DNA from: Crossaster papposus
Lineage: Eukaryota; Echinodermata; Asteroidea; Velatida; Solasteridae
DNA length: 64,000 nucleotides
Reading direction: 5' to 3'
Assembly (NCBI GenBank): GCA_037893245.1
Contig: JBAIAA010000519.1
Coordinates: 682,001-746,000 of the forward strand
This document shows, piece after piece, positions 9,931 to 57,349 of this stretch. The position numbers and the translations under genes were made by a program. The stretch's first letter is position 1, and the number at the start of each line of letters is the position of its first letter. Under the pieces are notes generated by a model. It saw only the letters and a list, made by a program, of their open reading frames with translations. It was not told the DNA's origin and ran no database searches.

Positions 9931-10007
<77 letters not shown>

Positions 10008-11071: not shown

Positions 11072-11104
<33 letters not shown>

Positions 11105-12293: not shown

Positions 12294-12326
<33 letters not shown>

Positions 12327-13312
12327 GGGCAAACGCTCACAAAAAAATCTGCCAAATTCAATATCTGCCAAATTCTTTGACCGATTTCAACCAAATTTGG
12401 ACAGGATCTTCCTTGACCCAAGTTCTATCTGTATTGATCAGCAGGTGTGGTCAAACGTCACCTAGTGGTCACTAGTGGTCATTTTCTTTAAAAGTACAAA
12501 ATGCTACTTCTTCCACAGTCTTGGTCCAATTATTGTCAAACTTGGCCAGTTACATCTCTGGACCATGCCTCATAAAACTTGTTCACAGAATTTGGCCAGT
12601 GGTCACCAGATGGTCAGTAGGGGTCATTTTCTTCGAAATTAGGAAATGCTGCTTCTTCCAAAGTTTTGATCCAATTCATGTCAAACTTGGTCAGTTATAT
12701 CGCTGGACCAAGCCTCATATAGGGTGTACACCGATAATTTGGCCAATGGTCACCTAATGGTCAGCAGGGGTCATTTTCTTTAAAATTACGAAATGCTTCT
12801 TCTCCAACAGTCTTGGTTTAATTAATTTGGCCAATGGTCACCTAATGGTCAGTAGGGTCAGAATTTCGCCATTGGTCACCTAATGCATGGTCAGTAGGGG
12901 TAATTTTATTTTCAAAATAACGAAATGATTCTCCCACAGCCTTGATCTAATTAACTCGTAAAAGTTGTTCACAGAATTTGACCAGTGGTCACCTAATGGT
13001 CAGTAGGGGTCATTTTTTGTCAAAATAACGAAATGCTTCTCCCACAGCCTTGATCTAATTAATTTGGCCACTGGTCAACTAATGGTCAGTAGAGGTCATT
13101 ATATTGAAGCATATCAAATGTATTTTCTTCTGTATTCTTTAGCCGATTTCAGTCAAACTTGGTTAGATGCTTTTGCAATTTGGGAGTGGTAGTCATCACC
13201 AAGTGGTTAGTGCGAGGCGGTTCACACAAGCCTTACAAAAGACTATTTAGGCTGATATCCGTGCTTCCTGAAGCACATTAGCTCCAGTTTGAATCTGTAT
13301 TTATGTCGTCGC
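9836..13312 (+). repeat. Tandem of ~1.1-1.2 kb TTTC-headed repeat units
   Basis: Three tandem units, each headed by a (TTTC)n tract (about 9933-10007, 11061-11103 and 12282-12325), then GGGCAAACGCT..., then many internal ~100-bp subrepeats built on TGGTCACCTAATGGTCAGTA and AAATTACGAAATGCTTCTTC. Each unit closes with GGCTGATATCCGTGCTTCCT. A leading module, TATATCAGCCGTGCGAAGCA, is itself doubled at 9836 and 9890. The 66-codon frames at 10202 and 11299 are identical only because the units are duplicated, so I do not call genes. The type of element is unknown. Confidence 0.8.
11897..12040 (-). repeat. Inverted internal segment inside the second tandem unit
   Basis: The TTTC-element unit runs left to right, but here the text flips: GCATTTCGTAATTTTGAAGA, then GACCATTAGGTGACCACTGG, which is the reverse complement of subrepeats nearby. 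It adds about 120 bp to this unit relative to the first. Confidence 0.75.
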
Positions 13313-32655: not shown

Positions 32656-35600
32656 TTATACAATTGTGGTTTTCATGAAGGTTATGGGCCTTACAGTTTC
32701 AGTTCTCGTTGCACTGTTTGGTTCGTCATAGTGAACCATCAACGGTCTACCGCTGCTTAAACTTAAGTTCATTGAGCCGGATTGCTTTTTGCAAGGGCAG
32801 CAACTGTGAGAAATCGCGACGATCTTGGTCAAGACTTTGTCGATGGGTTCCAAGGAGTGCATCCACTTGGGAAAGCTTTCCCAAGTCTGCAGCTTCTTCG
32901 GCAGGACGGATTTCCTCTTGTGCTGGAGGACGTTGACGACGACGACGAAGGTCAATAGGAGAAGTAAGGGAATCCCGACGCCGGCCAGGAGCCAGACGCT
33001 GATCAGAGACAACCCAAAGACGAGAAGAGGAAGTGAGAAGAACATCATTACCAGGTAGAAGATAGCAAACCAGCGGTACTTGGCCGTGGTGTTGCCTAGC
33101 ATCTTGGCTAAGTTGATGGGCACCTTGCGCATGAAGGGGAGCGGGTACCAGATGAGGATGCCGCTGATGTTGAAGAAGAGGTGACACAGGGCAATCTGGA
33201 GGCTGTTGTCCAGCTTGTCGCCAGAGCTGGCCAAGGCGGCAAGGATTCCGGTGGCAGTGGTGCCGATGTTAGATCCTAGGGTCAACGGGAACATGCGTTC
33301 CAGCTTGATCACGCCCAGCCCAACCAGAGGCGTCATGGCCGAGGTGAAGACCGAACTGCTCTGAACGATGAACGTGATGCCAGCCCCGACCATGATGGCC
33401 AGGGGGCCAGTGAAGTAGGCGAAGGGACCCGGGAGGTCCGAGTTGATGGTCTTCTGGATGATGTTAGCGATGCGGCCCTTCAGACAGGAATGCAGTAGTT
33501 TGACCATCAAGACCAGGCAGATACAGAGCATGATGAGGGAGAATAGGAGAAGAATGCCCCCCACGGCCCTCTCCGACAGACCAGCATCAGCGATGTATCG
33601 GAACAAATAATTCCCTGCAATGATAAATAGTTAAATCATTTTAAAACAGTACATCGAAAATGCATTAGTGTATTTGTTTTATTGTTTAGTTTCTTTCTTT
33701 GAATGGGCAAATGCAGAATAGTTTCTTCACAGTACCTTTGTACAGAAGGTTTGAAGTATCAAGGTTACAAAATGTAAAAGCTTTCCCAAGTGAAATTAAA
33801 AAAATATACAAAAAATATACAACAGATTTCTATTTATGAACAATTGGGTTTGGAAAGAATGTAGTATCCGATGCCACTTCAGCGGTTGTGTAGAAAATAT
33901 ACGAAGAGTCAAGAACATTTTTAAAGTATTTCCTAACAAAATTGGAAATGTTTCTCAGTCCCAGATTCATGTCTTTTTTAATTTGTTGCACTCATTGACC
34001 TTTATTGAGACGATATATGAAGAAAAAGGTGGCATCAGTTTGCAACATTCTTTCAATTTTCTGTTTAAAAACAATGGAGCTGTCATCTTTTAAAATAAAA
34101 AAATTAAAAAAAGTAAATCTGTGCTCACCTTTCTTCAGTAGCTTGGCATCGGTAGCATTCAACTCTCCCGTAGCGATCTTGCTGACAACTTTGCTGTCAA
34201 TCTGCAGAAATAACAATTTTTTGGGAAAAGGAATAAATTAGTCATAATTAACACCATAATTTTGGGTTGATAATTCATCATCATCAGGATAGTAAATAAA
34301 TGAAATTGAGGATTGATCAGAGTGAAATGTTGACTTACATTAATGATGAGCTTTGAGAAAGGCTTTGTCAACACTTTTAGTAGCTCCACCTTCGTCCCGC
34401 CCGTTCCCTGAATACTGAAGGCTCCAATGATGGCACTGGTCAGGTGGTACAGATAGTGAGTGGTGACTTCTAACGGCAGAAGAACGATGACGGAAAGCCA
34501 GTTGAACATGTCGTGGATGGTTGCACCAGCGAAAGCTCGGCGGAACTCGTTGCGATTGCCAGACTGGGTAAGCGAGACAATGGTGTTGGTGACCGACGTG
34601 CCGATGTTCGCTCCCATTATGATGAAAATGGCTGGCTTGACTTCAAGTACTGCGAAAAATGACATTACAAACGAAGAATTAAAATAAGCACAATTTTCAA
34701 AATTCAACAAGTAACCCTAACCCTTTTTAGGGTTATGTAAAAATGTGTATTTAAATTGATGAATTTGGCACTGTAAGGGTTAAGCATGTGTTGTTGGTGT
34801 TGTTGTTTTTTAAGAAAGTATCCTGATTCCACTTCAGTGGTTGTGTACAAAGTCTATGGACAGTCAAGAAAAAGTATTTCCTAACAAAATTGGAAATGTT
34901 TCTCAGTCCCAGATTAATCTTTGCACCGATTGACATTCACCGAGAGGATATAATATATGAAGAATAAAGTGGCGTCAGGTTGCAAGTTTGCAACATTTTT
35001 TCCCCAAATCAAACTTCAATCTCGAGGAAAGTCGAGGCCAAATTTTGAAAATCTTGAAACTTACTTCCAGCGGCTACGATAGACACAACGATTGAAGTCG
35101 AAGTGCTGGAGCTCTGGACCAGTACGGTGGCCAGGATTCCAATCATCAGGCCACAGATTGGGTTGTTGAGTAGCTCATTCTCACTCAATACTTCCCCTGC
35201 CTCTTTGCCTCCCAGAAGACGGAAAGCAGAGCTCATCACATCTAGGGAGCAGATGAAGAAATAGAGGAGGACCACGATACAGACGGGTTTGAGCAGCCAG
35301 TCTACCAGAACCTGACGAGCCTTGCCGCTGGTTGTCAAATCTGTACACAAATGTTAAGAGAGAAAGAGAAAAAAAAAATCAAGACTGATACTCAAAGTCA
35401 AAAATAAAATTGTAATCATTCTTATACATTTGTTTTACTTGGGATTTTTATAAATTTATGTGTTTTTTTAATAGGCAAATAATTTTTTTTGGAGGCCGCC
35501 TTTTTTTTTTTAGTAAAAAAAAACGGGACAAAAATGATAAAAAATGTTATTATCTTTGTTATTATTTTTTGTACAAATATGATCGTTTTGTTTTTTTGAC

Positions 35601-37816
35601 TTTAGCATCACTGTGTACATGCTTTGGAAATAGTCCATTAGTACGTACGCCTGTTGGAGACCATCTTCAAAAATAGCCTGGCAGGTACGTTGTCTTAAAA
35701 AAAATGTGTCGGGCGGCCATTTAAAAAAGGAAGAAAAAAAAGGGCCTCCTTCCTTTTTTTCTAAAAAGGCAGGACGCTAAACATGTTTTTTTTTTATTTG
35801 GCCTTGCTCTGAGTAAGAAATATTTTTGTTCACCCCTCAAAAAACAATGACATGTTTTGTTTTCCTTTAAAAATAGTTTATACATATAGGGAATATACAG
35901 TACATTTGCTTTTACTGTATTTGACAGAAATAGATGAATTTGGGAGTTTAGTATTTTATAGCAAATATCGTTACACTGACTTGTTTGAAATTGTGTGTTT
36001 GATGCTGAAAAAACAATTATGTTCTTGTAGTCTGGCTCCTTGACTTGACAATGCTGGTCGGCTGACCAGCAATATAAATTTATAGAAAAATAACATATTT
36101 CTTGAAAATGACAGCACACCAAGTCCAATTATTTTACAGGATACTTTAGACTGTCATTCATTATTACTACAGTCTACTGTCTAGTAATGTATTTTATAAT
36201 AATTTTGTAATTTTGTTTTATGGGCTTGCAAATGTTGTATATTCTCTCTAAATGGTCATCTTCATTCTATTTTATTAAATTGAATTGTATTCATGGAGGA
36301 CATCACTAATGATCAATGCTCTGTATTTAATAATTCTAAATCTAAAAACTCGCAATACTACTACAAAGTACTAAACCATCCATCATGCTCAATAATGGTT
36401 TTTTTTGTTCATTTAAATTTCAATGAAAGAAACAAAAACACATCCTGTTTTCTACTTCCCTAAAATTGCTTTCTTTGAAAGCCACTGATTAATAGCGCTG
36501 GTGCTAGCCGGCTTTGATATTTTCCGGTTAATACGGATAATGCATGACGTAGGACATATGAACAGGATGTCTGACTACTGACAAGAATGTGTAGTGTCAA
36601 TTTGACGAGTCTTGTTATCAGACCACTTTTTTTGCGGTTTGGCATGTGAACACCACGCGCCCACGTGGTGATCAGTCTGTGGCGTGATGTGATGTTCACG
36701 AATACATGTACATACAGCAGCTACACATGCACAAAGCCTGGGCAATACACTTTAGGCCGGTTCGCGCTGGAACATGGTTTGGCATTAGGGGGAAATTATT
36801 TTGGATTTTTGGTGAACAAATCATTTGACTAGTTTTTCTTCCTTATCAATAAGGGGACTATACTTAACTAGGCCAATAAAAATCCTGTTATAGGAGCGTT
36901 TTAATTTTGAAAAGATACGACCATGTTTGATGATTGACATCCTTATAGATGATTGATGAACGACGTCTGCATGTTCTTATTTCTCCATGATTTATAGCAA
37001 TTAGCATCACGAAAAAAATGTTAGCATATAAAACATGGCATAAATAGGTGCAGGCCTACCTTTTTAGGCCTGACCCACAGTTAAACTTATGTGAAAATAA
37101 TAAAATAATGTTAGCCTAGTTTAGTAGTTAAACTGTTAAAAAGTGTTAACGTAGAACATTTGTTGGCCGAGCTGTTGAAGAAAAATACAATTTTGCCGAG
37201 CATAAATGATGGACAAGGTTTATAATTTACCTGACCAATTCACCCCAAGTTGCTGAATTTCTGGCGGTTCCCACACATCAATTTCTTCGACCCTTTCATC
37301 CAGATGACCCTTAACTTTGTTTTCCCCCGGCAGTTGACCATCTACCAAAGTCATCTGCGCCCGCGTAGCACCGTCGAATCGATCAAGCCCCGCCAGATCC
37401 CCTCCCTTCTTCGTCTGCTGCCCGAGAACTTCAACCAAGAAGGGGAAGTCAATCTTTGTCTCCAGCGGGGAATGGAGGCAGATATGGCCAGAAATTGGAT
37501 GAACCTAAATGGCGGTGGATGAAATTTCAAGTGAACTTAGTCTCGTGTATACTAGTAATTTTTTTTATAGGCCTAATTATTAAAACATATTTAAACATTA
37601 AACTGTTTTTTTAAGCCGGCTTTTTCAAACCGAATTAATAAGGCGAAGGCGAAATAAAAATTGATGACTTACCGGCGGTACGGGCGGCATGGCTTGGGAA
37701 ACCCAAACGCTCTCCTCTCGTGGGCCAGCTTTGCAAGAATAGACCGGCGGAGGGCCCATGATCGGACTTTGTGGCAGTGGTAGCGTCACAGGTATTTGGC
37801 CGTCAAAACGTGCCAT
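32656..37816 (-). CDS. SLC34A: SLC34 type II sodium/phosphate cotransporter (six coding exons)
   Basis: Exons, read on the minus strand: 37816-37673, 37504-37231, 35340-35065, 34649-34339, 34201-34129 and 33614-32656. All junctions are GT-AG, phases agree, and the total is 678 residues, close to vertebrate SLC34A2 (about 690). The protein should carry phosphate into the cell with Na+ across the apical plasma membrane. Seen in the sequence: both family repeat signatures, QSSSTSTS (about 215) and QSSSVFTSA (about 444); the two G-[AS]-N-I-G-T motifs (about 244 and 473); the [11 protein letters not shown] block, whose Asp (278) I recall as marking electrogenic types; a short Cys-rich tail (SCCPC); and a C-terminal TTIV that fits a class I PDZ ligand. 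The hydrophilic N terminus (about 140 residues) is not conserved. The start follows from MARFDGQ being kept in the duplicate at 55251. Oddity: the extracellular loop after IDSKVVSKI is only about 30 residues, against about 90 in vertebrates. The family call is near certain; which vertebrate paralogue it matches is not. Confidence 0.95.
33836..34030 (+). repeat. Intron repeat shared with 34800-34990
   Basis: About 170 bp in SLC34 intron 5 that recurs in the same orientation in intron 3. Shared stretches include CCTAACAAAATTGGAAATGT, TTTCTCAGTCCCAGATT and ATATATGAAGAA. It is non-coding. Either an interspersed element or a local duplication. Confidence 0.7.
34800..34990 (+). repeat. Intron repeat shared with 33836-34030
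   Basis: Intron 3 copy of the duplicated segment: CCACTTCAGTGGTTGTGTAC, AGTATTTCCTAACAAAATTG and GGTTGCAAGTTTGCAACATT match the intron 5 copy with substitutions and small indels. Confidence 0.7.
35341..37230 (-). other. SLC34 intron 2, with decayed repeat
   Basis: A 1.9-kb intron between the second and third coding exons. Around 35930-36250 it contains decayed text like MITE family C (TAGTCTGGCTCC, GACTGTCATTCATT, GCAAATGTTGTAT). Frames on either strand are unsupported. No further SLC34 exon is needed, since phases match across the intron. Confidence 0.7.
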
Positions 37817-38572
37817 TTCTTATGCTTAATCCTAACCAAATTTGTGAATGGACGACTTCACTCGACTCGTTTCCTTTTGCAAAACTGACGGTTTTCCGAG
37901 AGCGCGTAGTAATTTTCTCCAAATTTGCCAGCCCGTCATGCATGTACGTGTCCAATCAGAACGCATGATTCTGAAACGTCACCGTACTCGGCCCGGAACA
38001 ACGACACGGTTCATTCACAAAACGGGCACATGTTAGGCACATGCACAGCTAGCGCAGCGCGTGTGCCGGGTGTGTGCATGTACGTGTGTTCTAAAAATAA
38101 CCCAATGAGCCTCGCGGCAAGCAGTATCATTTTTTTTAAGGGGTGGCAAATTATAAGTTAAAAATGAAGACTTTTTTGGCGTAGAGTTTCGAACTTTGCT
38201 TGAGTTATACATTCACTAGTAATTCAATCATCTTTAGAAATGGATATTTTCACTATCGTTAAGAATACAGCGGGACCAAAAAGTTGTACGTGGAACTTAT
38301 ATTTGTCACAAAAGTTTTACCTACGCCCAGTAAAATGGGCTGGTCCATAAAGGGGTTCCCTCAAAGTTCCTTCTAAAGTACTAGTATGTAGCTTCATCTA
38401 CAAGATCTGACCAAAAATCTACAATGCTGCAATCTAAGGCAATTTGAGAATAAAAAATAAGGAACATTATTTGAGTCAATTGTTGGCCTCATCATAATTA
38501 TTAGTCCAAGAATAATTAAACAAAAGGGGGGGGGGGGGGGGGGTGTTACAGATACATAATAACCTGTATCCG

Positions 38573-38610
38573 CCCATGGAGGAATAAGAAGGAACTTCTT
38601 ATTCCTCCAT
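38573..38610. repeat. Perfect 17-bp hairpin
   Basis: CATGGAGGAATAAGAAG and CTTCTTATTCCTCCATG with a GAA loop, preserved unchanged in the duplicate at about 56043-56080. It lies just right of the poly-G run. Confidence 0.8.
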
Positions 38611-39263
38611 GATCCGCCACTCTACTTGTGAGCGCCTATACTGGTTAGAGAACGTATAGTGGCTGCGTAGGCCAAGTCGATATGTTTGGTCTGAACAAGA
38701 GAGGATATAGCGGTTATGATTGGCCACTCAGTCGCCTATCTTCCATTTTATAGTTTGTACTAATACATTCGAGGCATAATACCAAAAATATTACTAGTTG
38801 TTCCTTGGGCCGGTAGAGGGGACCGGACCCATCTTCACAACTCCTTAGGTTTATTAATTTAAATAAATTATACAAAATTACTTGGGGCACACGGCCTCCC
38901 TCGTCCTTGGCCCCCCGCAGCTAGCTACCGGTAGTTGAGCCGCGGAACTGGCGACTTCCGTTCACAGCTAATATACTAGCAATAGCATAGAGACTGTTTC
39001 CTTTCTCTATGTTTATAGGTCACACAAAACCTATAGCTCAAATTAAGCGCATCGGCGTTTCCCCTGGCCTATACTGCACTCACTGCCACAAAGGTTGCTT
39101 ATAATTTGTTGGTTAAATTGCTTTTATAAGTTTTCGAGCAATAATTGTTTAAACCAACATAATGTTGAAAATCGCCCGTTGTATTTTTCGAGTATAAAGT
39201 ACGGGTAAGATGATGTTTAATACATTGTACAAACAAAGTTGGGTAACCGCGTTTAATTACACA

Positions 39264-39918
39264 TTCATAAATACCTGGGACAGTTTAGGCATTCCTATTG
39301 GTCGAGAGCCCGTCACGTGGCCGGTATTAAACGGACGATAAAGACATGGCTGGAAGTGTTTAAACATAGCTGGAATCACCATTCCGTCCCCAGGGCTCAC
39401 TTTATTTCCAATCCTGAACCGTACCTCGTCTCCAATAATAAGAGCGGGTAGTGTTGAGCGCGTACAGCTCGACACCTTGGGAACGAGGTTGCCAATGGCA
39501 GTAATAGTCTGGTTCACAGTAAATACGCTTTATTGTATGTATTGTGTAGAGAGCGACAGAGGCGGAAACATGTAATTTGACACAGACAGAATGGCGAAAC
39601 ACCGAAATTTACTTGCGACAATTTTCCGGGATTTTCGGGGCTTTTTGGGCTGAATTTAAAAAAAAAGTATTTATGAATGGGAATAAATGTGTGTTCGGTC
39701 GGTATTAATCACTCTGTTTAATACCGATTGGAGTCTGGGTGCTGATAATTACCCTCGCCTTCGGCTCGGGTAATTATCAGCACCCAGACTCCAATCGGTA
39801 TAGAGTCTGGGTGCTGATAATTACCCTCGCCTTCGGCTCGGGTAATTATCAGCACCCAGACTCCAATCGGTATTAAACAGAGTGATTAAAACCTCTCGAA
39901 CACACATTCATTCCCTTA
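39264..39918. mobile_element. Foldback element family E, copy 2 (polymorphic insertion)
   Basis: A 655-bp insertion absent from the duplicated segment, where TTTAATTACACA runs straight into GTGTTGATCAAAATATG (56708-56735). It has the same ends as 26925-27510 (TTCATAAATACCTGGG and ATTCCCTTA). The internal hairpin with CTCGCCTTCGGCTCGGG is present twice in tandem here and once in the other copy. There is no clear target duplication. Non-autonomous. Confidence 0.9.
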
Positions 39919-40059
39919 GTGTTGATCAAAATATGAACGGCGGGAAAACGTAATTTACAAATTGAGCAAATTCGCAGCACAAATAAAAACTAAAATCTAA
40001 AAACAAAAAAAGCTAAATAATAAAACATGCACCCACAAACGCCCACAAGTGGGTAAATG

Positions 40060-40215
40060 CCGTCAATAGGGGACGGGGCATTGTCCGACCGTCTTCCCTC
40101 TTTTGTTTGTACTCTAACGTTTTCGGATGATCGCCATAGGATTTGCACACGAGTCTGAATCGGGGACCTTTGCGGAATAGGGGACCCCATTGTTCCCTTT
40201 GCCATACGTCCCCTA
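40060..40215. repeat. Short element with three co-varying GGGGAC motifs
   Basis: AATAGGGGAC occurs at about 40067 and 40172, and its complement GTCCCCTATT at about 40208, framing about 150 bp. In copy 2 the same three positions carry a different motif (see 56860-57020). The 71- and 76-codon minus frames here are not preserved in copy 2 and are rejected. Confidence 0.55.
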
Positions 40216-40521
40216 TTTCAATCAAAAACAAACGCACATACATTTAGCAACAAATATAATTTTAAGATGCTGTTTGCACTATGCAAAAAGCTATATGCTG
40301 GTCTTGAACATTTAACACCGTAGATGGCCAGTGGATCAATTTTTTTACATTTAAGTTTTTAAAGTTGTTTTAAACCTTTTAGTATTTATTTTGTTTCACA
40401 TAATTATATATCATTGTATTTGCAGAGTGTGCGATGTTGACGCAAGCGCATAGATGATGAGAAGATGATTGCACAAAACTAGAGAGGGCGCTATGTAGTC
40501 ACTGCGCTGCCAGATGTCATA

Positions 40522-42757: not shown

Positions 42758-43879
42758 TACATGTACACTGTGTACACACACCCAGTCATATCCTGTATTT
42801 GTGTATAATGAATAATTCATGATGAGGCTCAAACTCGGTCGCTGATTGGATCCCTCGGAAAAGCGAGGGAGAATCGTCGAAAACTAAGGTTAAAGTTAAC
42901 AATTGCTAGCCAACTAGTGCTAGACCCTTCTGGGAATCCAAAATCATGTACGTTTGTCAAACGTCGGCTCCAGTGCGAACATGGATCCAGCCGCATTTTG
43001 TAAACTACGCATGCGTAAGACCAGAACGCACACGAAGCCGGGATTTGAAAAAGAGACAGCGTTAACGAATCTGCGCGCGTGGTGGGCGCCGAAATAACAC
43101 AAGGGTCTAGGGCTAGACTAGATGTCATAGGGCCTTTTCAAATCTCTGGATTCGTTTCGCAATTCGATATGGCTTAAGGCAATTTTAGATTCTCAACTGC
43201 GAGATCACCAGCCACATTCTGATGCCTGTTGTGCTTAAACCGATTATGATGCCGCCCTAAACTTTGGACAATTTAGAGGATAGAATCCACTGAAGATGCT
43301 ACGTCAAACTCAGTTTCTATGTGTAGTTTCCCGCCAAATGTCGAGGAACTCCAGCACCACATTCAAATGTATTGTAACGTCGAGCGACACATCAGAGCCA
43401 ACACACCCAGCTTGCAAATTGACCTGTAATTTCCAAATCCATTTCGATGCCTCCCTGGGATTTTTACAAATACTAGACGAGGAATAGATTATGACGATTT
43501 TTAAATATCTTTAACTTTCTATGCATAGTTTTCCTAAAATTTATCGTCAAATCACAGCATCAAAATTATTGCCGTGTAACGATTAACGTATACAAACGCA
43601 CGCAGCCTACTATTATTATACAAATAGCACACAACATTAATTTCGCCAGCAAAACGCGGGCTGAAAGAACAACACAAAATCGGACAGACGGCGCTGCCTC
43701 GCGACACTCTGGAGTAGGGTGGCAATGTATATGTTTTTCATTTGATATTTAAACATCGTGAGGAGTTAGCCTTGTGTTTTAAATAAAATTGTCTTGTTTG
43801 GGTAAGATTTGTTCACCATTAGTCCCTGAACACGTGAGAGTTCTAAGTATTTTAATAAGATCGTGAAAGTATGGGCGTT
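42758..43879. other. Intergenic, no gene recognised
   Basis: A 99-codon minus frame at 42829-43128 has no domain I recognise. No RNA gene seen. Confidence 0.4.
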
Positions 43880-44041
43880 TTTTCACGTGATCTTTACTGT
43901 TTTTGATTGATAATCAACTTTTTTTTTGCTTATCATGAAAAACACGTAGATTTTTGGCTGGTAACCTGTTTTTAATGAGCAAGACTTTTTTGTGCTAAGC
44001 AAATTTGTGTGCTTAGCAGCTCCGTGAAATTGGCCCCTGGT
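43880..44041 (+). mobile_element. MITE family D, 3' part
   Basis: Starts within the element (TTCACGTGATCTTTACTGTT) and ends GCTCCGTGAAATTGGCCCC; the left ~80 bp is missing. Confidence 0.8.
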
Positions 44042-44675
44042 CACAACGAACCCACGGCGCATTATTTTGTTCCAAGACACGACATAAAAATTGGGCAAAT
44101 CGTGGGTCATCGGGGGTAGTCGCAAGACAGTCCTACGAAAGTTCGAGCATCGTGGCATCGACGTACGTACATGTGCTTACGGACGGGTAATGACGCCTTG
44201 ACCAAGGCTAAAGAAAACTATGCATAGAAAGTTGAAGAAATTAAAAAATCGTATTAATCTCTATTCCACATCTTGTGAAAGTCCAAGGGTGGCATCGAAA
44301 TGGATTTAGAAATTATAAGTCGATTTGCAAGCTGGGTCCCCTACATTGTACGTTTGCACTTTCACAAACATAGCTACACATCCATACGTGCATCGCTATT
44401 GCACTGCGGCTAATCCGTTTGATTTTGCTGCACAATTGCAAAGCTCGTTTTTTTCACAAGTCCGTTTGCACTTTAAATCACCGTCCGTAAAGTTAATTAA
44501 CAATCGACCATCGTCGTCTGTCCCACTTCAAAATATCAATAGGAAAGTACTCCCAAGGAGAACCGTAGAAGATGACGTCATGTACAATGGTCGATACACT
44601 TATGAGATGGTCGTATATACATGATGGCATATTATTATGTGCATAAACAGGAATTATGTTATTTATTAAGTTTTA
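44042..44675. other. Intergenic, no gene recognised
   Basis: A 99-codon plus frame at 44325-44624 has no recognisable domain and ends next to the minisatellite. Unsupported. Confidence 0.4.
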
Positions 44676-44816
44676 CATATGCGACCACACCGCGCATCTG
44701 TATATGCGACCACCGCGCATCTGTATATGCGACCACACCGCGCATCTGTATATGCGACCACCGCGCATCTATATATGCGACCACCGCGCATCTATATGCG
44801 GCCACCGCGCATCTAT
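44676..44816 (-). repeat. 23-bp minisatellite, reversed left island
   Basis: About six units reading ATGCGACCACCGCGCATCTG, the reverse complement of the main array. Two units contain an extra CA (GACCACACCGCGC) not noticed elsewhere. This island is separated from the main array by the element at 44817-45447. Confidence 0.9.
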
Positions 44817-45447
44817 TATACAAATATTGACTGCTTTGAGTGGTATAGTAAAACTAGCCTCCCGAGGTGATCCATGCATGGAGCATTCTATTTTCCCGAG
44901 GCGAATCCGAGGGAAAATAGAATGCTCCATGGATCACCGAGGGAGGCTCAGTTTTACTATACCGCGAAATAAAGCAGTCAATATTTGTTTTATAACACCT
45001 CACTCACAGATTCTGCACAATTTAAGCTTCCTGAAAGTATAGTAATGACAACAAATCTCCGAATTCAGTGATCAACCTACGTGCAAGCAGTGCGTTGTTT
45101 ACGAAAGAAATGTACGTTAAATTTGCGTTTTGAAAGGGCACCCGACTATTTGTATCTTCGTTCCCTTTTTCTCGATCATACGTGTACTTTGTTACCTTGA
45201 TGAACGGGTGCGAGGGTGATAGAGCAATGTTTACGCAATGCACCGAAACACACGTCTGGGTTTCAGTCACGCTTTCGTTGCTATGCGCATAGTACGTGTT
45301 TTACTATGCACATAGTACTTTTTCAGAACGAGGCTGCGTGGTATAGTCTTTTTGGAGCGCAAGTAAAAAATAGTAAAAATAGCAAGTGACACGTGACGCG
45401 CTCTCGGCCAATCAAGACACAGAATCTGTGAGTGAGGTGTTATAAAG
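44817..45447. mobile_element. Compound foldback/TIR element H, copy 1
   Basis: The left part is a foldback: AATATTGACTGCTTTGAGTG, AAACTAGCCTCCCGAGG and TGGAGCATTCTATTTTCCC, with the complements ending at about 44988. The right part (44992-45444) has 25-bp inverted ends that begin TATAACACCTCACTCACAGA. Copy 2 lies at 54003-54512 in the same orientation. Both are embedded in the minisatellite. Non-coding. Confidence 0.8.
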
Positions 45448-45696
45448 CTATATATGCGACCACCGCGCATCTACATATGCGACCACCGCGCATCTACATT
45501 ATGCGGTGGTCGCATATACAGATGCGCGGTGGTCGCATATACAGATGCGCGGTGGTCGCATATGTAGATGCGCGGTGGTCGCATATACAGATGCGCGGTG
45601 GTCGCATATGTAGGTGCGCGGTGGTCGCATATACAGATGCGCGATGGTCGCATATGTAGATGCGCGGTGGTCGCATATGTAGATGCGCGGTAGTTG

Positions 45697-46016
45697 CATC
45701 ACTGACCTCTATACATGGACAGATCATCATTGTTTCATTTTGAAGTCGGCATGCGGAGAAGTGCAACATGGCGGACCCACGACGTGACTCTGTGAGCCAA
45801 TGAAATGTCCAGGTGTTGGTACGATACGTATTACGTAATGTCTAAAAATACAAAATGTACAGAATAAATCCACTGACCTCTACACCTGGACATTTCATTG
45901 GCTCACAGCAGTGACGTCTCGGGTCCGCCATGTTGCACTTCCAGTTCGCGCCGACTTCAAGTGTTAGCACAGCAGAATATGGACAATGATCCGTCCAGGT
46001 GTAGAGGTCAGTGAGT
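45697..46016. mobile_element. Palindromic insert inside the minisatellite
   Basis: Starts CACTGACCTCTATACATGGA and ends CCAGGTGTAGAGGTCAGTG. The arms contain CATGGCGGACCCACGACGTG and GACGTCTCGGGTCCGCCATG. In its middle, ATGAAATGTCCAGGTGT meets its complement GACCTCTACACCTGGACATT, so two opposed copies or one long foldback are present. About 320 bp, non-coding, with array units on both sides. Confidence 0.8.
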
Positions 46017-47707
46017 TGCATATGTAGATGCGCGGTGGTCGCATATGTAGATGCGCGGTGGTCGCATATATTGATGCGCGGTGGTCGCATATGTAGATGC
46101 GCGGTAGTCGCATATGTAGATGCGCGGTGGTCGCATATGTAGATGCGCGGTGGTTATGTAGATGCGCGGTGGTCGCATATGTAGATGCGCGGTGGTCGCA
46201 TATGTAGATGCGCGGTGGTCGCATATGTAGATGCGCGGTGGTCGCATATGTAGATGCGCGGTAGTCGCATATGTAGATGCGCGGTGGTCGCATATGTAGA
46301 TGCGCGGTGGTCGCATATACAGATGCGCGGTGGTCGCACATGTAGATGCGCGGTGGTCGCATATGTATAGATGCACGGTGGTCTCATATGTAGATGCGCA
46401 GTGGTCGCATATAAGCATGCGCGGTGGTCGCATATACAGATGCGCGATGGTCGCATATACAGATGCGCGGTGGTCGCATATACAGATGCGCGGTGGTCGC
46501 ATATGTAGATGCGCGGTGGTCGCATATATAGATGCGCGGTGGTCGCATATGTAGATGCGCGGTGGTCGCATATAGAGATGCGCGGTGGTCGCATATATAG
46601 ATGCGCGGTGGTCGCATATGTAGGTGCGCGGTGGTCGCATATACAGATGCGCGATGGTCGCATATGTAGATGCGCGGTGGTCGCATATGTAGATGCGCGG
46701 TAGTCGCATATGTAGATGCGCGGTGGTCGCATATGTAGATGCGCGGTGGTCGCATATATTGATGCGCGGTGGTCGCATATAGAGATGCGCGGTGGTCGCA
46801 TATACAGATGCGCGGTGGTCGCATATAGAGATGCGCGGTGGTCGCATATACAGATGCGCGGTGGTCGCATATGTAGATGCGCGGTGGTCGCATATACAGA
46901 TGCGCGATGGTCGCATATGTAGATGCGCGGTGGTCGCATATGTAGATGCGCGGTAGTCGCATATGTAGATGCGCGGTGGTCGCATATGTAGATGCGCGGT
47001 GGTCGCATATATTGATGCGCGGTGGTCGCATATGTAGATGCGCGGTGGTCGCATATGCAGATGCGCGGTGGTCGCATATGTAGATGCGCGGTGGTCGCAT
47101 ATGTAGATGCGCGGTGGTCGCATATGTAGATGCGCGGTGGTTATGTAGATGCGCAGTGGTCGCATATGTAGATGCGCGGTGGTCGCATATGTAGATGCGC
47201 GGTGGTCGCATTATGTAGATGCGCGGTGGTCGCATATGTAGATGCGCGGTGGTCGCATATGTAGATGCGCGGTGGTCGCATATGTAGATGCGCGGTGGTC
47301 GCATGTACAGATGCGCGGTGGTCGCATATACAGATGCGCGGTGGTCGCATATGTAGATGCGCGGTGGTCGCATATATTGATGCGCGGTGGTCGCATATGT
47401 AGATGCGCGGTGGTCGCATATACAGATGCGCGGTGGTCGCATATACAGATGCGCGGTGGTCGCATATGTAGATGCGCGGTGGTCGCATATGTATAGATGC
47501 ACGGTGGTCTCATATGTAGATGCGCGGTGGTCGCATATAATAATGCGCGGTGGTCGCATATACAGATGCGCGGTGGTCGCATAATACAGAAGCGCGGTGG
47601 TCGCATATACAGATGCGCGGTGGTCGCATATGTAGATGCGCGGTGGTCGCATATACAGATGCGCGATGGTCGCATATGTAGATGCGCGGTGGTCGCATAT
47701 ATGTACA

Positions 47708-50220
47708 TGTAGATGCGCGGTGGTCGCATATGTAGATGCGCGGTGGTCGCATATGTAGATGCGCGGTGGTCGCATATATAGATGCGCGGTGGTCGCATAT
47801 GTAGATGCGCGGTGGTCGCATATGTAGATGCGCGGTGGTCGCATATGTAGATGCGCGGTGGTCGCATATGTAGTTGCGCGGTGGTCGCATATGTAGATGC
47901 GCGGTGGTCGCATATGTAGATGCGCGGTGGTCGCATATGTAGATGCGCGGTGGTCGCATATGTAGATGCGCGGTGGTCGCATATGTAGATGCGCGGTGGT
48001 CGCATATGTAGATGCGCGGTGGTCGCATATTGATGCGTGGTCGCATAATTATGTAGATGCGCGGTGGTCGCATATAATGATGTGCGGTGGTCGCATATGT
48101 AGATGCGCGGTGGTCGCATATATAGATGCGCGGTGGTCGCATATGTAGATGCGCGGTGGTCGCATATACAGATGCGCGGTGGTCGCATATAATGATGTGC
48201 GGTGGTCGCATATGTAGATGCGCGGTGGTCGCATATATAGATGCGCGGTGGTCGCATATGTAGATGCGCGGTGGTCGCATATACAGATGCGCGGTGGTCG
48301 CATGTAGATGCGCGGTGGTCGCATATACAGATGCGCGGTGGTCGCATATGTAGATGCGCGGTGGTCGCATAATATTGATGCGCGGTGGTCGCATAATATT
48401 GATGCGCGATGGTCGCATATGTAGATGCGCGGTGGTCGCATATATTGATGCGCGGTGGTCGCATATGTAGATGCGCGGTGGTCGCATATACAGATGCGCG
48501 GTGGTCGCATATACAGATGCGCGGTGGTCGCATATGTAGATGCGCGGTAGTCGCATATGTATAGATGCGCGGTGGTCGCATATAATAATGCGCGGTGGTC
48601 GCATATACAGATGCGCGGTGGTGGCATATACAGATGCGCGGTGGTGGCATATACAGATGCGCGGTGGTGGCATATACAGATGCGCGGTAGTCGCATATGT
48701 AGATGCGCGGTGGTCGCATATAATAATGCGCGGTGGTCGCATATACAGATGCGCGGTGGTCGCATATACAGATGCGCGGTGGTCGCATATACAGATGCGC
48801 GGTGGTCGCATATGTAGATGCGCGGTGGTCGCATATATAGATGCGCGGTGGTCGCATATATAGATGCGCGGTGGTCGCATATGTAGATGCGCGGTGGTCG
48901 CATATGTAGATGCGCGGTGGTCGCATATGTAGATGCGCGGTGGTCGCATATGTAGTTGCGCGGTGGTCGCATATATTGATGCGCGGTGGTCGCATATATG
49001 TACATGTAGATGCGCGGTGGTCGCATATGTAGATGCGCGGTGGTCGCATATGTAGATGCGCGGTGGTCGCATATGTAGATGCGCGGTGGTCGCATATATA
49101 GATGCGCGGTGGTCGCATATGTAGATGCGCGGTGGTCGCATATGTAGATGCGCGGTGGTCGCATATGTAGATGCGCGGTGGTCGCATATGTAGTTGCGCG
49201 GTGGTCGCATATGTAGATGCGCGGTGGTCGCATATGTAGATGCGCGGTGGTCGCATATGTAGATGCGCGGTGGTCGCATATGTAGATGCGCGGTGGTCGC
49301 ATATGTAGATGCGCGGTGGTCGCATATGTAGATGCGCGGTGGTCGCATATTGATGCGTGGTCGCATAATTATGTAGATGCGCGGTGGTCGCATATAATGA
49401 TGTGCGGTGGTCGCATATGTAGATGTGCGGTGGTCGCATATATAGATGCGCGGTGGTCGCATATGTAGATGCGCGGTGGTCGCATATACAGATGCGCGGT
49501 GGTCGCATATAATGATGTGCGGTGGTCGCATATGTAGATGCGCGGTGGTCGCATATATAGATGCGCGGTGGTCGCATATGTAGATGCGCGGTGGTCGCAT
49601 ATACAGATGCGCGGTGGTCGCATGTAGATGCGCGGTGGTCGCATATACAGATGCGCGGTGGTCGCATATGTAGATGCGCGGTGGTCGCATAATATTGATG
49701 CGCGGTGGTCGCATAATATTGATGCGCGATGGTCGCATATGTAGATGCGCGGTGGTCGCATATATTGATGCGCGGTGGTCGCATATGTAGATGCGCGGTG
49801 GTCGCATATACAGATGCGCGGTGGTCGCATATACAGATGCGCGGTGGTCGCATATGTAGATGCGCGGTAGTCGCATATGTATAGATGCGCGGTGGTCGCA
49901 TATAATAATGCGCGGTGGTCGCATATACAGATGCGCGGTGGTGGCATATACAGATGCGCGGTGGTGGCATATACAGATGCGCGGTGGTGGCATATACAGA
50001 TGCGCGGTAGTCGCATATGTAGATGCGCGGTGGTCGCATATAATAATGCGCGGTGGTCGCATATACAGATGCGCGGTGGTCGCATATACAGATGCGCGGT
50101 GGTCGCATATACAGATGCGCGGTGGTCGCATATGTAGATGCGCGGTGGTCGCATATATAGATGCGCGGTGGTCGCATATATAGATGCGCGGTGGTCGCAT
50201 ATGTAGATGCGCGGTGGTCG
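47708..50220 (+). repeat. Higher-order tandem duplication, 1,320-bp offset
   Basis: Text from about 47708 to 48900 recurs from about 49028 to 50220 at an offset of exactly 1,320 bp, including irregular landmarks (TATTGATGCGTGGTCGCATA followed by ATTATGTAG; the run of GTGGTGGCATATACAG units). I noticed a single difference (AGATGCGC at 48105 against AGATGTGC at 49425). A third partial copy lies at about 51060-51480, offset 1,203 from the second. Confidence 0.9.
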
Positions 50221-53200
50221 CTATAGAGATGCGCGGTGGTCGCATATAGAGATGCGCGGTGGTCGCATATACAGATGCGCGGTGGTCGCATATGTAGATG
50301 CGCGGTGGTCGCATATACAGATGCGCGATGGTCGCATATGTAGATGCGCGGTGGTCGCATATGTAGATGCGCGGTAGTCGCATATATTGATGCGCGGTGG
50401 TCGCATATGTAGATGCGCGGTGGTCGCATATGTAGATGCGCGGTGGTCGCATATGTAGATGCGCGGTGGTCGCATATGTAGATGCGCGGTGGTCGCATAT
50501 GTAGATGCGCGGTGGTCGCATATGTAGATGCGCGGAGGTCGCATATGTAGATGCGCGGTGGTCGAATATGTAGATGCGCGGTGGTCGCATATGTAGATGC
50601 GCGGTGGTCGCATATGTAGATGCGCGGTGGTCGCATATGTAGATGCGCGGTGGTCGCATATGTAGATGCGCGGTAGTCGCATATGTAGATGCGCGGTGGT
50701 CGCATATGTAGATGCGCGGTGGTCGCATATAATGATGTGCGGTGGTCGCATATGTAGATGCGCGGTGGTCGCATATATAGATGCGCGGTGGTCGCATATG
50801 TAAATGCGCGGTGGTCGCATATACAGATGCGCGGTGGTCGCATATATTTATGTGCGGTGGTCGCATATGTAGATGCGCGGTGGTCGCATAATATTGATGC
50901 GCGGTGGTCGCATAATATTGATGCGCGATGGTCGCATATGTAGATGCGCGGTGGTCGCATATATTGATGCGCGGTGGTCGCATAATTATGTAGATGCGCG
51001 GTGGTCGCATATACAGATGCGCGGTGGTCGCATATACAGATGCGCGGTGGTCGCATATGTAGATGCGCGGTAGTCGCATATGTATAGATGCGCGGTGGTC
51101 GCATATAATAATGCGCGGTGGTCGCATATACAGATGCGCGGTGGTGGCATATACAGATGCGCGGTGGTGGCATATACAGATGCGCGGTGGTGGCATATAC
51201 AGATGCGCGGTAGTCGCATATGTAGATGCGCGGTGGTCGCATATAATAATGCGCGGTGGTCGCATATACAGATGCGCGGTGGTCGCATATACAGATGCGC
51301 GGTGGTCGCATATACAGATGCGCGGTGGTCGCATATGTAGATGCGCGGTGGTCGCATATATAGATGCGCGGTGGTCGCATATATAGATGCGCGGTGGTCG
51401 CATATGTAGATGCGCGGTGGTCGCTATAGAGATGCGCGGTGGTCGCATATAGAGATGCGCGGTGGTCGCATATACAGATGCGCGGTGGTCGCATATACAG
51501 ATGCGCGGTGGTCGCATATGTAGATGCGCGGTGGTCGCATATACAGATGCGCGATGGTCGCATATGTAGATGCGCGGTGGTCGCATATGTAGATGCGCGG
51601 TGGTCGCATATGTAGATGCGCGGTGGTCGCATATGTAGATGCGCGGTGGTCGAATATGTAGATGCGCGGTGGTCGCATATGTAGATGCGCGGTGGTCGCA
51701 TATGTAGATGCGCGGTGGTCGCATATGTAGATGCGCGGTGGTCGCATATGTAGATGCGCGGTAGTCGCATATGTAGATGCGTGGTGGTCGCATATGTAGA
51801 TGCGCGGTGGTCGCATATAATGATGTGCGGTGGTCGCATATGTAGATGCGCGGTGGTCGCATATATAGATGCGCGGTGGTCGCATATGTAAATGCGCGGT
51901 GGTCGCATATACAGATGCGCGGTGGTCGCATATATTTATGTGCGGTGGTCGCATATGTAGATGCGCGGTGGTCGCATATATAGATGCGCGGTGGTCGCAT
52001 ATGTAGATGCGCGGTGGTCGTATATACAGATGCGCGGTGGTCGCATATACAGATGCGCGGTGGTCGCATATACAGATGCGCGGTGGTCGCATATGTAGAT
52101 GCGCGGTGGTCGCATATAATAATGCGCGGTGGTCGCATATACAGATGCGCGGTGGTCGCATATACAGATGCGCGGTGGTCGCATATGTAGATGCGCGGTG
52201 GTCGCATATATAGATGCGCGGTGGTCGCATATGTAGATGCGCGGTGGTCGCTATCGGAGATGCGCGGTGGTCGCATATAGAGATGCGCGGTGGTCGCATA
52301 TACAGATGCGCGGTGGTCGCATAAACAGATGCGCGGTGGTCGCATAATTTATGTAGATGCGCGGTGGTCGCATATACAGATGCGCGGTGGTCGCATGTAT
52401 TGATGCGCGGTGGTCGCATATGTAGATGCGCGGTGGTCGCATATGTAGATGCGCGGTGGTCGCATATGTAGATGCGCGGTGGTCGCATATGTAGATGCGC
52501 GGTGGTCGCATATGTAGATGCGCGGTGGTCGAATATGTAGATGCGCGGTGGTCGCATATGTAGATGCGCGGTGGTCGCATATGTAGATGCGTGGTGGTCG
52601 CATATGTAGATGCGCGGTGGTCGCATATGTAGATGCGCGGTAGTCGCATATGTAGATGCGCGGTGGTCGCATATGTAGATGCGCGGTGGTCGCATATAAT
52701 GATGTGCGGTGGTCGCATATGTAGATGCGCGGTGGTCGCATATATAGATGCGCGGTGGTCGCATATGTAGATGCGCGGTGGTCGCATATACAGATGCGCG
52801 GTGGTCGCATATAATGATGTGCGGTGGTCGCATATGTAGATGCGCGGTGGTCGCATATATAGATGCGCGGTGGTCGCATATGTAGATGCGCGGTGGTCGC
52901 ATATACAGATGCGCGGTGGTCGCATATACAGATGCGCGGTGGTCGCATATACAGATGCGCGGTGGTCGCATATGTAGATGCGCGGTGGTCGCATAATATT
53001 GATGCGCGATGGTCGCATATGTAGATGCGCGGTGGTCGCATATGTAGATGCGCGGTGGTCGCATATATTGATGCGCGGTGGTCGCATATGGTGAGATGCG
53101 CGGTGGTCGCATATGTAGATGCGCGGTGGTCGCATATGTAGATGCGCGGTGGTCGCATTATGTAGATGCGCGGTGGTCGCATATGTAGATGCGCGGTGGT

Positions 53201-54002
53201 CGCATATGTAGATGCGCGGTGGTCGCATATGTAGATGCGCGGTGGTCGCATATGTAGATGCGCGGTGGTCGAATATGTAGATGCGCGGTGGTCGCATATG
53301 TAGATGCGCGGTGGTCGCATATGTAGATGCGCGGTAGTCGCATATGTAGATGCGCGGTGGTCGCATATGTAGATGCGCGGTAGTCGCATATGTAGATGCG
53401 CGGTGGTCGCATATGTAGATGCGCGGTGGTCGCATATAATGATGTGCGGTGGTCGCATATGTAGATGCGCGGTGGTCGCATATATAGATGCGCGGTGGTC
53501 GCATATGTAGATGCGCGGTGGTCGCATATACAGATGCGCGGTGGTCGCATATACAGATGCGCGGTGGTCGCATATGTAGATGCGCGGTGGTCGCTATAGA
53601 GATGCGCGGTGGTCGCATATAGAGATGCGCGGTGGTCGCATATACAGATGCGCGGTGGTCGCATATACAGATGCGCGGTGGTCGCATATACAGATGCGCG
53701 ATGGTCGCATATGTAGATGCGCGGTGGTCGCATATGTAGTCGCATATGTAGATGCGCGGTAGTCGCATATATTGATGCACGGTGGTCGCATATGTAGATG
53801 CGCGGTGGTCGCATATGTAGATGCGCGGTGGTCGCATATGTAGATGCGCGGTAGTCGCATATGTATAGATGCGCGGTGGTCGCATATAATAATGCGCGGT
53901 GGTCGCATATACAGATGCGCGGTGCGGTGGTGGCATATACAGATGCGCGGTGGTGGCATATACAGATGCGCGGTAGTCGCATATGTAGATGCGCGGTAGT
54001 AT

Positions 54003-54512
54003 ACAAATATTGACTGCTTTGAGTGGTATAGTAAAACTAGCCTCCCGAGGTAATCCATGGAGCATTCTATTTTCCGGAGGCGAAGCCGAGGGAAAATAGA
54101 ATGCTCCATGGATCACCGAGGGAGGCTAGTTTTACTATACCGCGAAATAAAGCAGTCAATATTTGTTTTATAACACCTCACTCACAGATTCTGCACAATT
54201 TAAGCTTCCTGAAAGTATAGTAATGACAAAAAATCTCCGAATTATACGTCTCTCGATCATACGTGTACTTTGTTGCCTTGATGAACGGGTGCGAAGGTGA
54301 TAGCAATGTTTACGCAATGCACCGAAACACACGTCTGGGTTTCAGTCACGCTTTCGTTGCTATGCGCATATTTCGTGTGTTGCTATGCGCATAGTCCTTT
54401 TTGCGTGGTATAGTCTTTTTGGATAGCACAAGTAAAAAATAGTAAAAATAGCAAGTGATACGTGCCGCGCTCTCGGCCAATCAAGACACAGAATCTGTGA
54501 GTGAGGTGTTAT
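54003..54512. mobile_element. Compound element H, copy 2 (internal deletion)
   Basis: Same order and orientation as 44817-45447, but about 110 bp is missing around 54245 (AATTATACGTCTCTCGATCA), with small changes elsewhere. Flanked by minisatellite units on both sides. Confidence 0.85.
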
Positions 54513-54746
54513 AATCGCATATATTGATGCACGGTGGTCGCATATGTAGATGCGCGGTGGTCGCATATGTAGATGCGCGGTGGTCGCATATGTAGATATA
54601 TGCGCGGTGGTCGCATATGTAGATGCGCGGTGGTCGCATAATAGATGCGCGGTGGTCGCATATGTAGATGCGCGGTAGTCGCATATGTAGATGCGCGGTG
54701 GTCGCAATGTAGATGCGCGGTGGTCGCATATGTAGATGCGCGGTGG
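54513..54746 (+). repeat. 23-bp minisatellite, right island
   Basis: About ten units, several irregular (GTAGATATATGCG, CATAATAGATG), ending GCGCGGTGGTC exactly where homology to SLC34 exon 2 begins. Confidence 0.95.
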
Positions 54747-55251
54747 TCTTCGACACTTTCATCCAGATGATCCTTAACTTTGTTTTCCCCCGGCAGTTGA
54801 CCATCTACCAAAGTCATCTGCGCCCGCGTAGCACCGTCAAGCCCCGCCAGATCCCCTCCATTCTTCGTCTGCTGCCCGAGAACTTCAACCAAGAAGGGGA
54901 AGTCAATCTTTGTCTCCAGCGGGGAATGGAGGCAGATATGGCCAGAAATTGGATGAACCTAATGGCGGTGGATGAAATTTCAAGTGAACTTAGTCTCGTG
55001 TAAACTAGTGGTAATTAGTAAAACACTAAACATTAAAGGTCTGTTTTTTTAAGCCGGCTTTTTCAAACCGAATTAAGGCGAAGGCGAAATGAAAAGTGAT
55101 GACTTACCGGCGGTACTGGCGGCATGGCTTGGGAAACCCAAACGCTCTCCTCTCGTGGGCCAGCTTTGCAAGAATAGACCGGCGGAGGGCCCATGATCGG
55201 ACTTTGTGGCAGTGGTAGCGTCACATGTATTTGGCCGTCAAAACGTGCCAT
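54747..55251 (-). pseudogene. Truncated duplicate of SLC34 exons 1 and 2
   Basis: Exon 1 copy 55251-55108 keeps the ATG, all 48 codons and the GT donor. Exon 2 copy starts at 54958 after an intact AG and is cut at 54747 by the minisatellite. Relative to the parent I see P10H, K to N, G to D and R to S changes, and an in-frame 9-bp loss in the LDRFDGAT segment. Exons 3-6 are absent nearby. Spliced, the frame would run through the junction into the array and stop at 54509, giving a hypothetical 197-residue product, about 118 residues SLC34-like and the rest array-encoded. It has no transport domain. Probably a non-functional fragment, although it may keep the promoter. Confidence 0.85.
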
Positions 55252-56859
55252 TTTTGTATGCCTATAAATCCTAACCAAATTTGTGAATGGACGACTTCAC
55301 TCGACTCGTTTCCTTTTGCAAAACTGACGGTTTTCCGAGAGCGCGTAGTATTTTCTCCAAATTTGCCAGCCCGTCATGCATGTACGTGTCAAATCAGAAC
55401 GCATGATTCTGAAACGTCACCGTACTCGGCCCGGAACAACGACACGGTTCATTCACAAAACGGGCACTCACATGTTAGGCACATGATCAGCGCGGCGCGT
55501 GTGCCGGGTGCATGCATGTACGTACGTGTGTTCTAAAAAGAACCCAATGAGCCTCACGGCAAGCAGTATCATTTTTTTTGAAGGGGTGGAAAATTATAAT
55601 TTAAAAATTAAGACTTTTTTGGCGTAGAGTTTCGAACTTTGCTTGAGTAATACAATCAAGAGTAAATCAATCATTTTTAGAAATGTATATTTTCACTACC
55701 GTTAAGAATACAGCGGGACCAAAAAGTGATACGTGGAACTAATAATATTTTCCACAAAAGTTGTATCTACGCCCAGTAAAATGGGCTGGTCCATAAAGGG
55801 GTTCCCTCAAAGTTCCTTCTAAAGTACTAGTACATGTAGTACTAGTAGTAGTACATGTAGCTTCATCTACAAGATCTGACCAAAAATCTACAATGCTGCA
55901 ATCTAAGGCAATTTGAGAATAAAAAATAAGGAACATTATTTGAGTCAATTGTTGGCCTCATCATAATTATTAGTCCAAGAATAATTAAACAAAAGGGGGG
56001 GGGGGGGGGGGTGTTACAGATACATAATAACCTGTATCCGCCCATGGAGGAATAAGAAGGAACTTCTTATTCCTCCATGATCCGCCACTCTACTTGTGAG
56101 CGCCTATACTGGTTAGAGAACGTATAGTGGCTGCGTAGGCCAAGTCGATATGTTTGGTCTGAACAAGAGAGGATATAGCGGTTATGATTGGCCACTCAGT
56201 CGCCTATCTTCCATTTTATAGTTTGTACTAATAAATTCGAGGCATAATACCAAAAATATTACTAGTTGTTCCTTGGGCCGGTAGAGGGGACCGGACCCAT
56301 CTTCACAACTCCTTAGGTTTATTAATTTAAATAAATTATACAAAATTACTTGGGGCACACGGCCTCCCTCGTCCTTGGCCCCCCGCAGCTAGCTACCGGT
56401 AGTTGAGCCGCGGAACTGGCGACTTCCGTTCACACTAGCATAGAGACTGTTTCCTTTCTCTATGTTTATAGGTCACACAAAACCTATAGCTCAAATTAAG
56501 CGCATCGGCGTTTCCCCTGGCCTATACTGCACTCACTGCCACGGTTGCTTATAATTTGTTGGTTAAATTGCTTTTATAAGTTTTCGAGCAATAATTGTTT
56601 AAACCAACATAATGTTGAAAATCGCCCGTTGTAATTTTCGTTGCCTAACGTTGAGTATAAAGTACGGGTAAGATGATGTTTAATACAAACAAAGTTGGGT
56701 AACCGCGTTTAATTACACAGTGTTGATCAAAATATGAACGGCGGGAAAACGTAATTTAAAAATTGAGCAAATTCGCAGCACAAATAAAACTAAAAACTAA
56801 AAACTAAAAACTAAACAATCTAAATAATAAAACATGCACCCACGCACACAAGTGTAAGC

Positions 56860-57020
56860 CTTCGATCGTGGACGGGGCATTGTCCGACCGTAATCCTTCT
56901 TTTGTTTATACTATTTTGTTTTCGGATGATCTCCATAGGATTTGCGCACGAGTTGAGATCGCTGACCTTGTGTCAATCGTGGACAGCATTGTTTCCCCAA
57001 AATTCCTTTGTCCCCCGTCC
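56860..57020. repeat. Counterpart of 40060-40215 with replaced motifs
   Basis: GATCGTGGAC (about 56863) and AATCGTGGAC (about 56975), with CGTCCGCGATCGAC (about 57017), sit where copy 1 has AATAGGGGAC twice and its complement. The intervening sequence is clearly homologous (GTTTTCGGATGATC, CCATAGGATTTGC). Confidence 0.55.
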
Positions 57021-57349
57021 GCGATCGACGGTGTTTACACACGCACAACTACGTATGCAAGACTAACTCACGCCCATCAACCACACCAACACATACACTG
57101 GCCATCTACGGGGTTAAATGTTTAAGGCCAGCATATAGCTTTGTTTTACATTTAAGGTTTTAAAGATGTTTTAGACCTTTTAGTATTTATTTTGTTTCAG
57201 ATAATTATATATCATATCATTGTATGTGCTAGAGTGTGCGATGTTGACGCAAGCGCATAGATGATGAGAAGATGATTATACAAAACTAGAGAGGGCGCTA
57301 TATGTAGTCACTGCGCTCGCTCAGAGAGGGCGCTGCCAGATGTCATAGA

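Follow-up and report, generated by a model that had tools for sequence, protein, structure and literature searches.

The 23-bp array in the 64,000-nt stretch of DNA analyzed here (the window; C519:682001-746000 of a 1.02-Gb assembly in 1,841 contigs) is probably non-coding satellite (minisatellite) DNA that belongs to a family with a short form carried in dispersed MITE-like repeats. The array consists of many head-to-tail tandem units of 23 bp, each composed of the core ATGCGCGGTGGTCGCAT and an AT-rich linker, and ~371 cores fill positions 44677-54752. A tolerant count in 44601-54800 gave 371 cores (363 plus, 8 minus), of which 280 were exact, and the exact 20-nt core occurred 249 times in the window; TRF reported 334 copies of period 23 at 46018-53739 and more pieces within 44677-54748. 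The spacing was 23 in 309 of 343 cases in the main block, and the most frequent variable triplets were GTA, ACA, ATA, ATT and AGA. The GC content and the CpG observed/expected ratio of the main block were 0.55 and 1.91; for the part of the window outside 44601-55000, the values were 0.40 and 0.92. The earlier note on this DNA had described a 20-nt core plus a variable triplet repeated about 350 times, which agrees with our count. The array that it delimited is real, but starts ~770 bp further left, at 44677; it is also interrupted by three non-array inserts, and its leftmost eight cores are in the opposite orientation (Table 1). For the insert nearest the right end, a search gave 1,599 candidates, and among the best 40, which were scored, the other full-length copies listed were 98-99% identical.

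Table 1. Features of the array and its surroundings in the window
Feature	Positions	Strand	Basis
SLC34-type Na/Pi cotransporter exons	32656..35353	-	PF02690 in three frames; PDB SLC34A2a
Other copy of the duplicated segment; exon reaches a splice-donor-like site	37284..40508	-	
Dispersed repeat cut by the left end of the array	44036..44674	.	C238 and C162 copies continue
First array piece, ~6 units	44677..44816	-	TRF and tolerant core count
MITE-like insert, same family as the 54000-54514 insert	44817..45447 (approximate ends)	.	
Array piece; orientation switch at its right end	45448..45497	-	TRF
Array piece	45498..45699	+	TRF and tolerant core count
Second MITE-like insert; relative inside the C313 array (L012)	45700..46016 (approximate)	.	
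Main 23-bp array, 344 cores	46017..53999	+	TRF and tolerant count
Open frame of 1,565 codons, not considered a gene	47211..51908	-	
Open frame of 1,611 codons, not considered a gene	47510..52345	-	
1,195-bp block, second copy 1,320 bp further on (one mismatch)	47707..48901	+	
MITE-like insert, high-copy family	54000..54514	.	
Last array piece, ending at a duplication breakpoint	54515..54751	+	TRF
Partial duplicate of 37284-40508, cut in an exon by the right end of the array	54747..57317	-	

The core was searched against the whole assembly, as the earlier note had proposed. We found 2,875 exact copies of the 20-nt core and 0 of its backward control, which is more than chance would give, and 4,759 exact copies of a 15-nt core, with 1 of its backward control. 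A 601-bp array query yielded at least 169 matches (36 of 44 candidates scored); those listed lay on C564, C313, C277, C908, C196, C483, C929, C642, C519, C255, C425 and C845, the window's own array being absent from the list. To judge from the shared core, we assign the window array with high confidence to a genome-wide family. The long arrays of this family have a spacing of 23, along with 21, 24 or 25, and at other loci the commonest spacing was 17 (L040, L041, L047 and L050), 20 (L046), 17 and 21 (L048) or 17 and 23 (L045); L040 and L041, which belong to a single duplicated segment (98.6% over 3.9 kb), were counted once. The 20-nt core had 0 matches in viral_contigs and genome_contigs. The earlier suggestion of an undescribed family stands only in the sense that four core strings had no match in the papers searched, a search that strings broken across lines would escape; as far as searched, the family is new as a sequence and known as a kind. 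Near the 17-bp arrays, a 13-bp minisatellite was also noticed from matches shifted by 13 (L040:1217-1738, L041:3710-3930, L045:906-1569 and L047:3007-3427), and beside the 17/21-bp array, at L048:3900-4130, there are 20-bp units ATGCGCGGCGTCTGGCGCAT in which the hairpin arms are kept and the loop is different.

The 17-bp arrays are built of the same 17-nt core without the linker, and this short form resides at the junction of two dispersed repeats. The flanks of several 17-bp arrays resemble one another, and one flank is a repeat termed segment B here. A search with segment B gave 610 first-look candidates, the best 40 of which were scored and listed, and we read 111 bp beside 20 of these 40 copies. 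The core lay directly upstream of segment B at nearly the same junction in five of the 20 copies (C279, C313, C1003, C724 and C410), that is, at a shared position in the repeat; because the copies had been listed in order of their similarity to the C196 copy, which bears an array, 5/20 is not a genome-wide rate. The core was absent beside the other 15 sampled copies, with the usual repeat start in 14 of them, and the core-free copies L086, L089 and L090 have a common flank. Four more of the 40 copies lie ~15 bp from an array; of these four, the copy on C196 and one on C90 were seen in sequence, and another on C90 and one on C157 by coordinates only. The junction at the C196 copy differs from the shared one. 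Segment B begins after TTAA in most sampled copies. The second repeat ends where the 17-bp array begins at C279, C1003 and one C90 copy, as seen in sequence, and by coordinates at the second C90 copy. A search with this repeat gave 1,057 candidates, the best 40 of which were scored, with at least 53 matches; the core was found in none of 17 other copies sampled, whose flanks comprised 12 that differed and five, from C728 and C105, that were shared. Unit number varies among the copies, from two at C279 and about four at C1003 to dozens, by 15-mer places, at C196, and at C1003 a hybrid unit consists of the last nine bases of the second repeat plus ATAATGCGC. Many copies of the second repeat are clustered within 45 kb at C728:550946-595470.

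We further considered how such seeds might be related to the long arrays. The long arrays share the core with the 17-bp arrays and carry in addition a linker that is mostly 6 nt, and they contain recent long internal duplications and orientation switches. In the window, the 1,195-bp block is a recent internal duplication, its single mismatch being derived from the alignment score, and other near-identical blocks recur at lags of 1,203, 879 and more; together with the lag of 1,320, this is the pattern of homogenisation by exchange within an array. A head-to-head pattern was seen in ten matches at seven places (C196, C313, C519 and C908). What connects the seeds with the long arrays is their common 17-nt core and the mixed 17/23 array L045. 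A search with both carrier pieces found neither seed repeat flanking the window array, so that its own link to the seeds rests on the shared core; as it does not lie in a carrier, we file it as satellite DNA that is related to the carrier but outside it. We infer that the seeds spread with the dispersed repeats, that they would have grown into long 23-bp arrays by slippage, helped by the short inverted repeats of the unit, and that unequal exchange would have enlarged and homogenised these arrays. In the window, break repair may then have joined the array to the cut repeat on the left and to the cut gene duplicate on the right.

Both flanks of the window array are interrupted sequences. The left flank (42760-44676) had at least 145 matches (best 40 of 5,781 candidates), and the C238 and C162 copies reach the position corresponding to window 44674 and then continue differently from the window array. 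Matches to this flank recur every ~3.4 kb at C1038:1220-18713 and C552:724053-731430, where a larger tandem repeat therefore contains the dispersed repeat. On the right, positions 54747-56719 are 92% identical to 37284-39263 and, beyond an alignment gap of ~650 bp, 56719-57317 are 76% identical to 39918-40508. The exon is cut at the array edge, and the broken gene copy that the earlier note had placed next to the array is confirmed. A genome search with 54750-56000 gave eight matches, namely the two long copies and six of at most 77 bp. Among three nearby frames with PF02690, two were above the cut-off and one below, and the PDB match of a nearby frame was SLC34A2a; the 5' exon is taken by us to resemble SLC34 N-termini. 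At the right junction only TC is common with the other copy, which fits end joining and may be chance. The frame of the cut SLC34-type exon runs on into array units, giving an open frame of 149 codons at 54509-54958 on the minus strand.

Satellites of transposon-related origin, which are of the same kind, are described in PMC4079207, PMC6947457, PMC12628747 and PMC5139131. MITE-linked satellites being known, the present family is a new member and not a new kind. In Xenopus, miDNA4 is a Tc1/mariner MITE that contains a satellite (Scalvenzi and Pollet, cited after PMC12628747). It resembles the present case in that a dispersed element holds tandem units, whose number ranges from one or a few up to many, and in that there are also long arrays without the element ends; the short array described here, however, is found where two different repeats meet. 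According to PMC4079207, Tetris/TIR-220 of Drosophila virilis carries 220-bp units within foldback inverted repeats, and these internal tandem repeats likewise also form kilobase satellite-like arrays, whereas the 17-23-bp units described here are at a junction and, as far as seen, outside terminal inverted repeats. The occurrence together of a MITE form, a tandem array form and a composite form recalls Xstir of Xenopus; according to PMC12628747, the Xstir unit comes from internal MITE sequence, while here only the C1003 hybrid unit gives a hint of a MITE end. In bivalves, Pearl-type modular MITEs and BIV160-type satellites (PMC5139131) also have short satellite-like arrays in modular elements, abrupt array ends and palindromes in some units; their units differ in length and sequence.

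The order from seed to satellite is held with moderate confidence. The lack of the core in all 17 other sampled copies of the second repeat counts against it. In the reverse order, a free-standing 23-bp satellite would be older, and the dispersed repeats would have joined it and carried off small linker-less pieces. The 23-bp array on C908 contains a complete copy of segment B and the C929 array contains pieces of it, so that the repeat also enters or joins existing arrays, as the reverse order would have it; in addition, 14 of the 15 core-free segment B copies start normally, which indicates that the tandem repeat is no original part of segment B, and capture of an existing tandem repeat is the view that PMC12628747 reports for miDNA4. 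Nevertheless, we regard an older satellite as rather unlikely: the seed junction is kept in no 23-bp array tested, the simplest arrays, of two to few units, are found at the two-repeat junction, and 17- and 20-bp arrays also occur at other loci. It is very improbable that the length of the window array is an assembly artefact. The recurrence of the 1,195-bp block with one mismatch would fit such an error, but the array lies inside a 1.64-Mb contig with distinct flanks, holds many unit variants and separate inserts, and has counterparts on 12 contigs among the matches listed.

We also weighed the possibility that the minus-strand frames encode a translated repeat protein, with the SLC34-type exon perhaps as its start. 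Both frames that the earlier note had reported, of 1,565 and 1,611 codons, were found, and its statement that the unit lacks a minus-strand stop was borne out: the consensus unit and four other common variants are stop-free in every register, and each frame passes through all three registers because 23 is not a multiple of three. The frame of the cut exon extends into array units (149 codons in total), and Pfam scores for the whole proteins exceed the cut-offs. For the 1,611-aa frame, the matches were MazE-like (E = 1.5e-20), SIS (4.9e-12), Ig_SIBA-E_2nd (2e-6) and NPB13-l_MII_rpt (0.00091), the first three being above the whole-protein cut-offs, and MazE-like was also matched by the 1,565-aa frame. 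However, no single stretch of either frame passes a Pfam cut-off alone, and we read these scores as sums over repeats. Shuffled units are equally stop-free in 45% of cases on the minus strand and 57% on either strand; for random 23-mers and one given strand, the proportion is 29%. Moreover, among 34 non-23 spacings in the main block, the difference from 23 is divisible by three in only 1, which is not how the indels of a protein-coding repeat gene would behave, and an insert separates the fused frame from the main array. Translation of these frames is therefore hardly credible. The giant frames are best explained as a by-product of the letters of the unit, and such signs in the sequence point to a non-coding window array, a reading held with high confidence; the 45% openness of shuffled units and the 1/34 of frame-keeping spacings support the earlier reading as non-coding satellite DNA. 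Rfam and tRNA searches gave 0 matches each.

A more specific and distinctly speculative proposal, to which we give little credence, is that short inverted repeats (arms ATGCG/CGCAT) alternate along the unit in a chain and that the satellite diversifies by loop inversion, having been born at a MITE-like junction and seeded genome-wide with both repeats. The shared arms would let either loop turn round during replication, which, if true, would explain both the linker centres and the switches in orientation of whole units. The central dinucleotide of the linker in 12 array samples (n = 976) was GT in 486 units, AC in 229, GG in 104 and AT in 99, the rarer centres being AG (46), GC (5), CT (5) and AA (2); since GT is the reverse complement of AC, this suggests loop inversion, although the same outcome would follow from two ordinary transitions via AT. 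Single-stranded units fold weakly (-4.4 and -4.5 kcal/mol; z -1.9 and -2.8). In the L038 array (C483:58015-61615), which differs in this from the other samples, 105 units were counted and the linker centre was GG in 104.

Several further ideas were considered and set aside. Cleavage at the loop was suggested by some array ends that fall between GGTGG and T, inside the predicted hairpin loop, but other ends are spread over the unit, many in or near the linker; the survey covered 191 ends on the right and 181 on the left, which fell to 49 and 55 once similar flanks had been removed, and several of the entries were only diverged units. The linker was more variable than the core in nine of ten array samples, the exception being L038, but the excess is mainly at two positions common to most samples and the units were chosen by their core, and constraint on the core, of a CENP-B-box-like kind, is not claimed. 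As to a location at chromosome ends, no TTAGGG array was found at the 13 contig ends read; by hand, a long array was placed within about a tenth of the contig end in 5 of the 9 contigs bearing long arrays.

Other repeats and contigs were encountered along with this family. In the window, a 12-bp array at 60089-60842 (63 copies of CTGCCGCTCGCA) has open frames on both strands, with a plus frame of up to 337 codons that has no Pfam match; an unrelated 17-bp array with the unit ACCTAGTAGTTATGGGG occupies 18840-18935 and 19971-20225; and 9961-13290 contains a tandemly repeated block (841 bp, 99.3% identity, ~1.1 kb apart). Elsewhere, C1841 carries COX1 with 13 TGA and is probably mitochondrial, and C8:2872001-5210009, on a contig of >5 Mb, has COX1 matches without TGA codons and is perhaps a bacterial contig in the assembly.

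In the window array, giant proteins would be predicted by gene finders, and the present analysis gives a reason to mask such frames. One genome holds seeds of two units, arrays of middle size and arrays of ten kilobases, all with one core, which makes the path from a transposon-borne repeat to a satellite directly testable in relatives, and the same setting allows one to test how satellite ends come to lie at duplication breakpoints.
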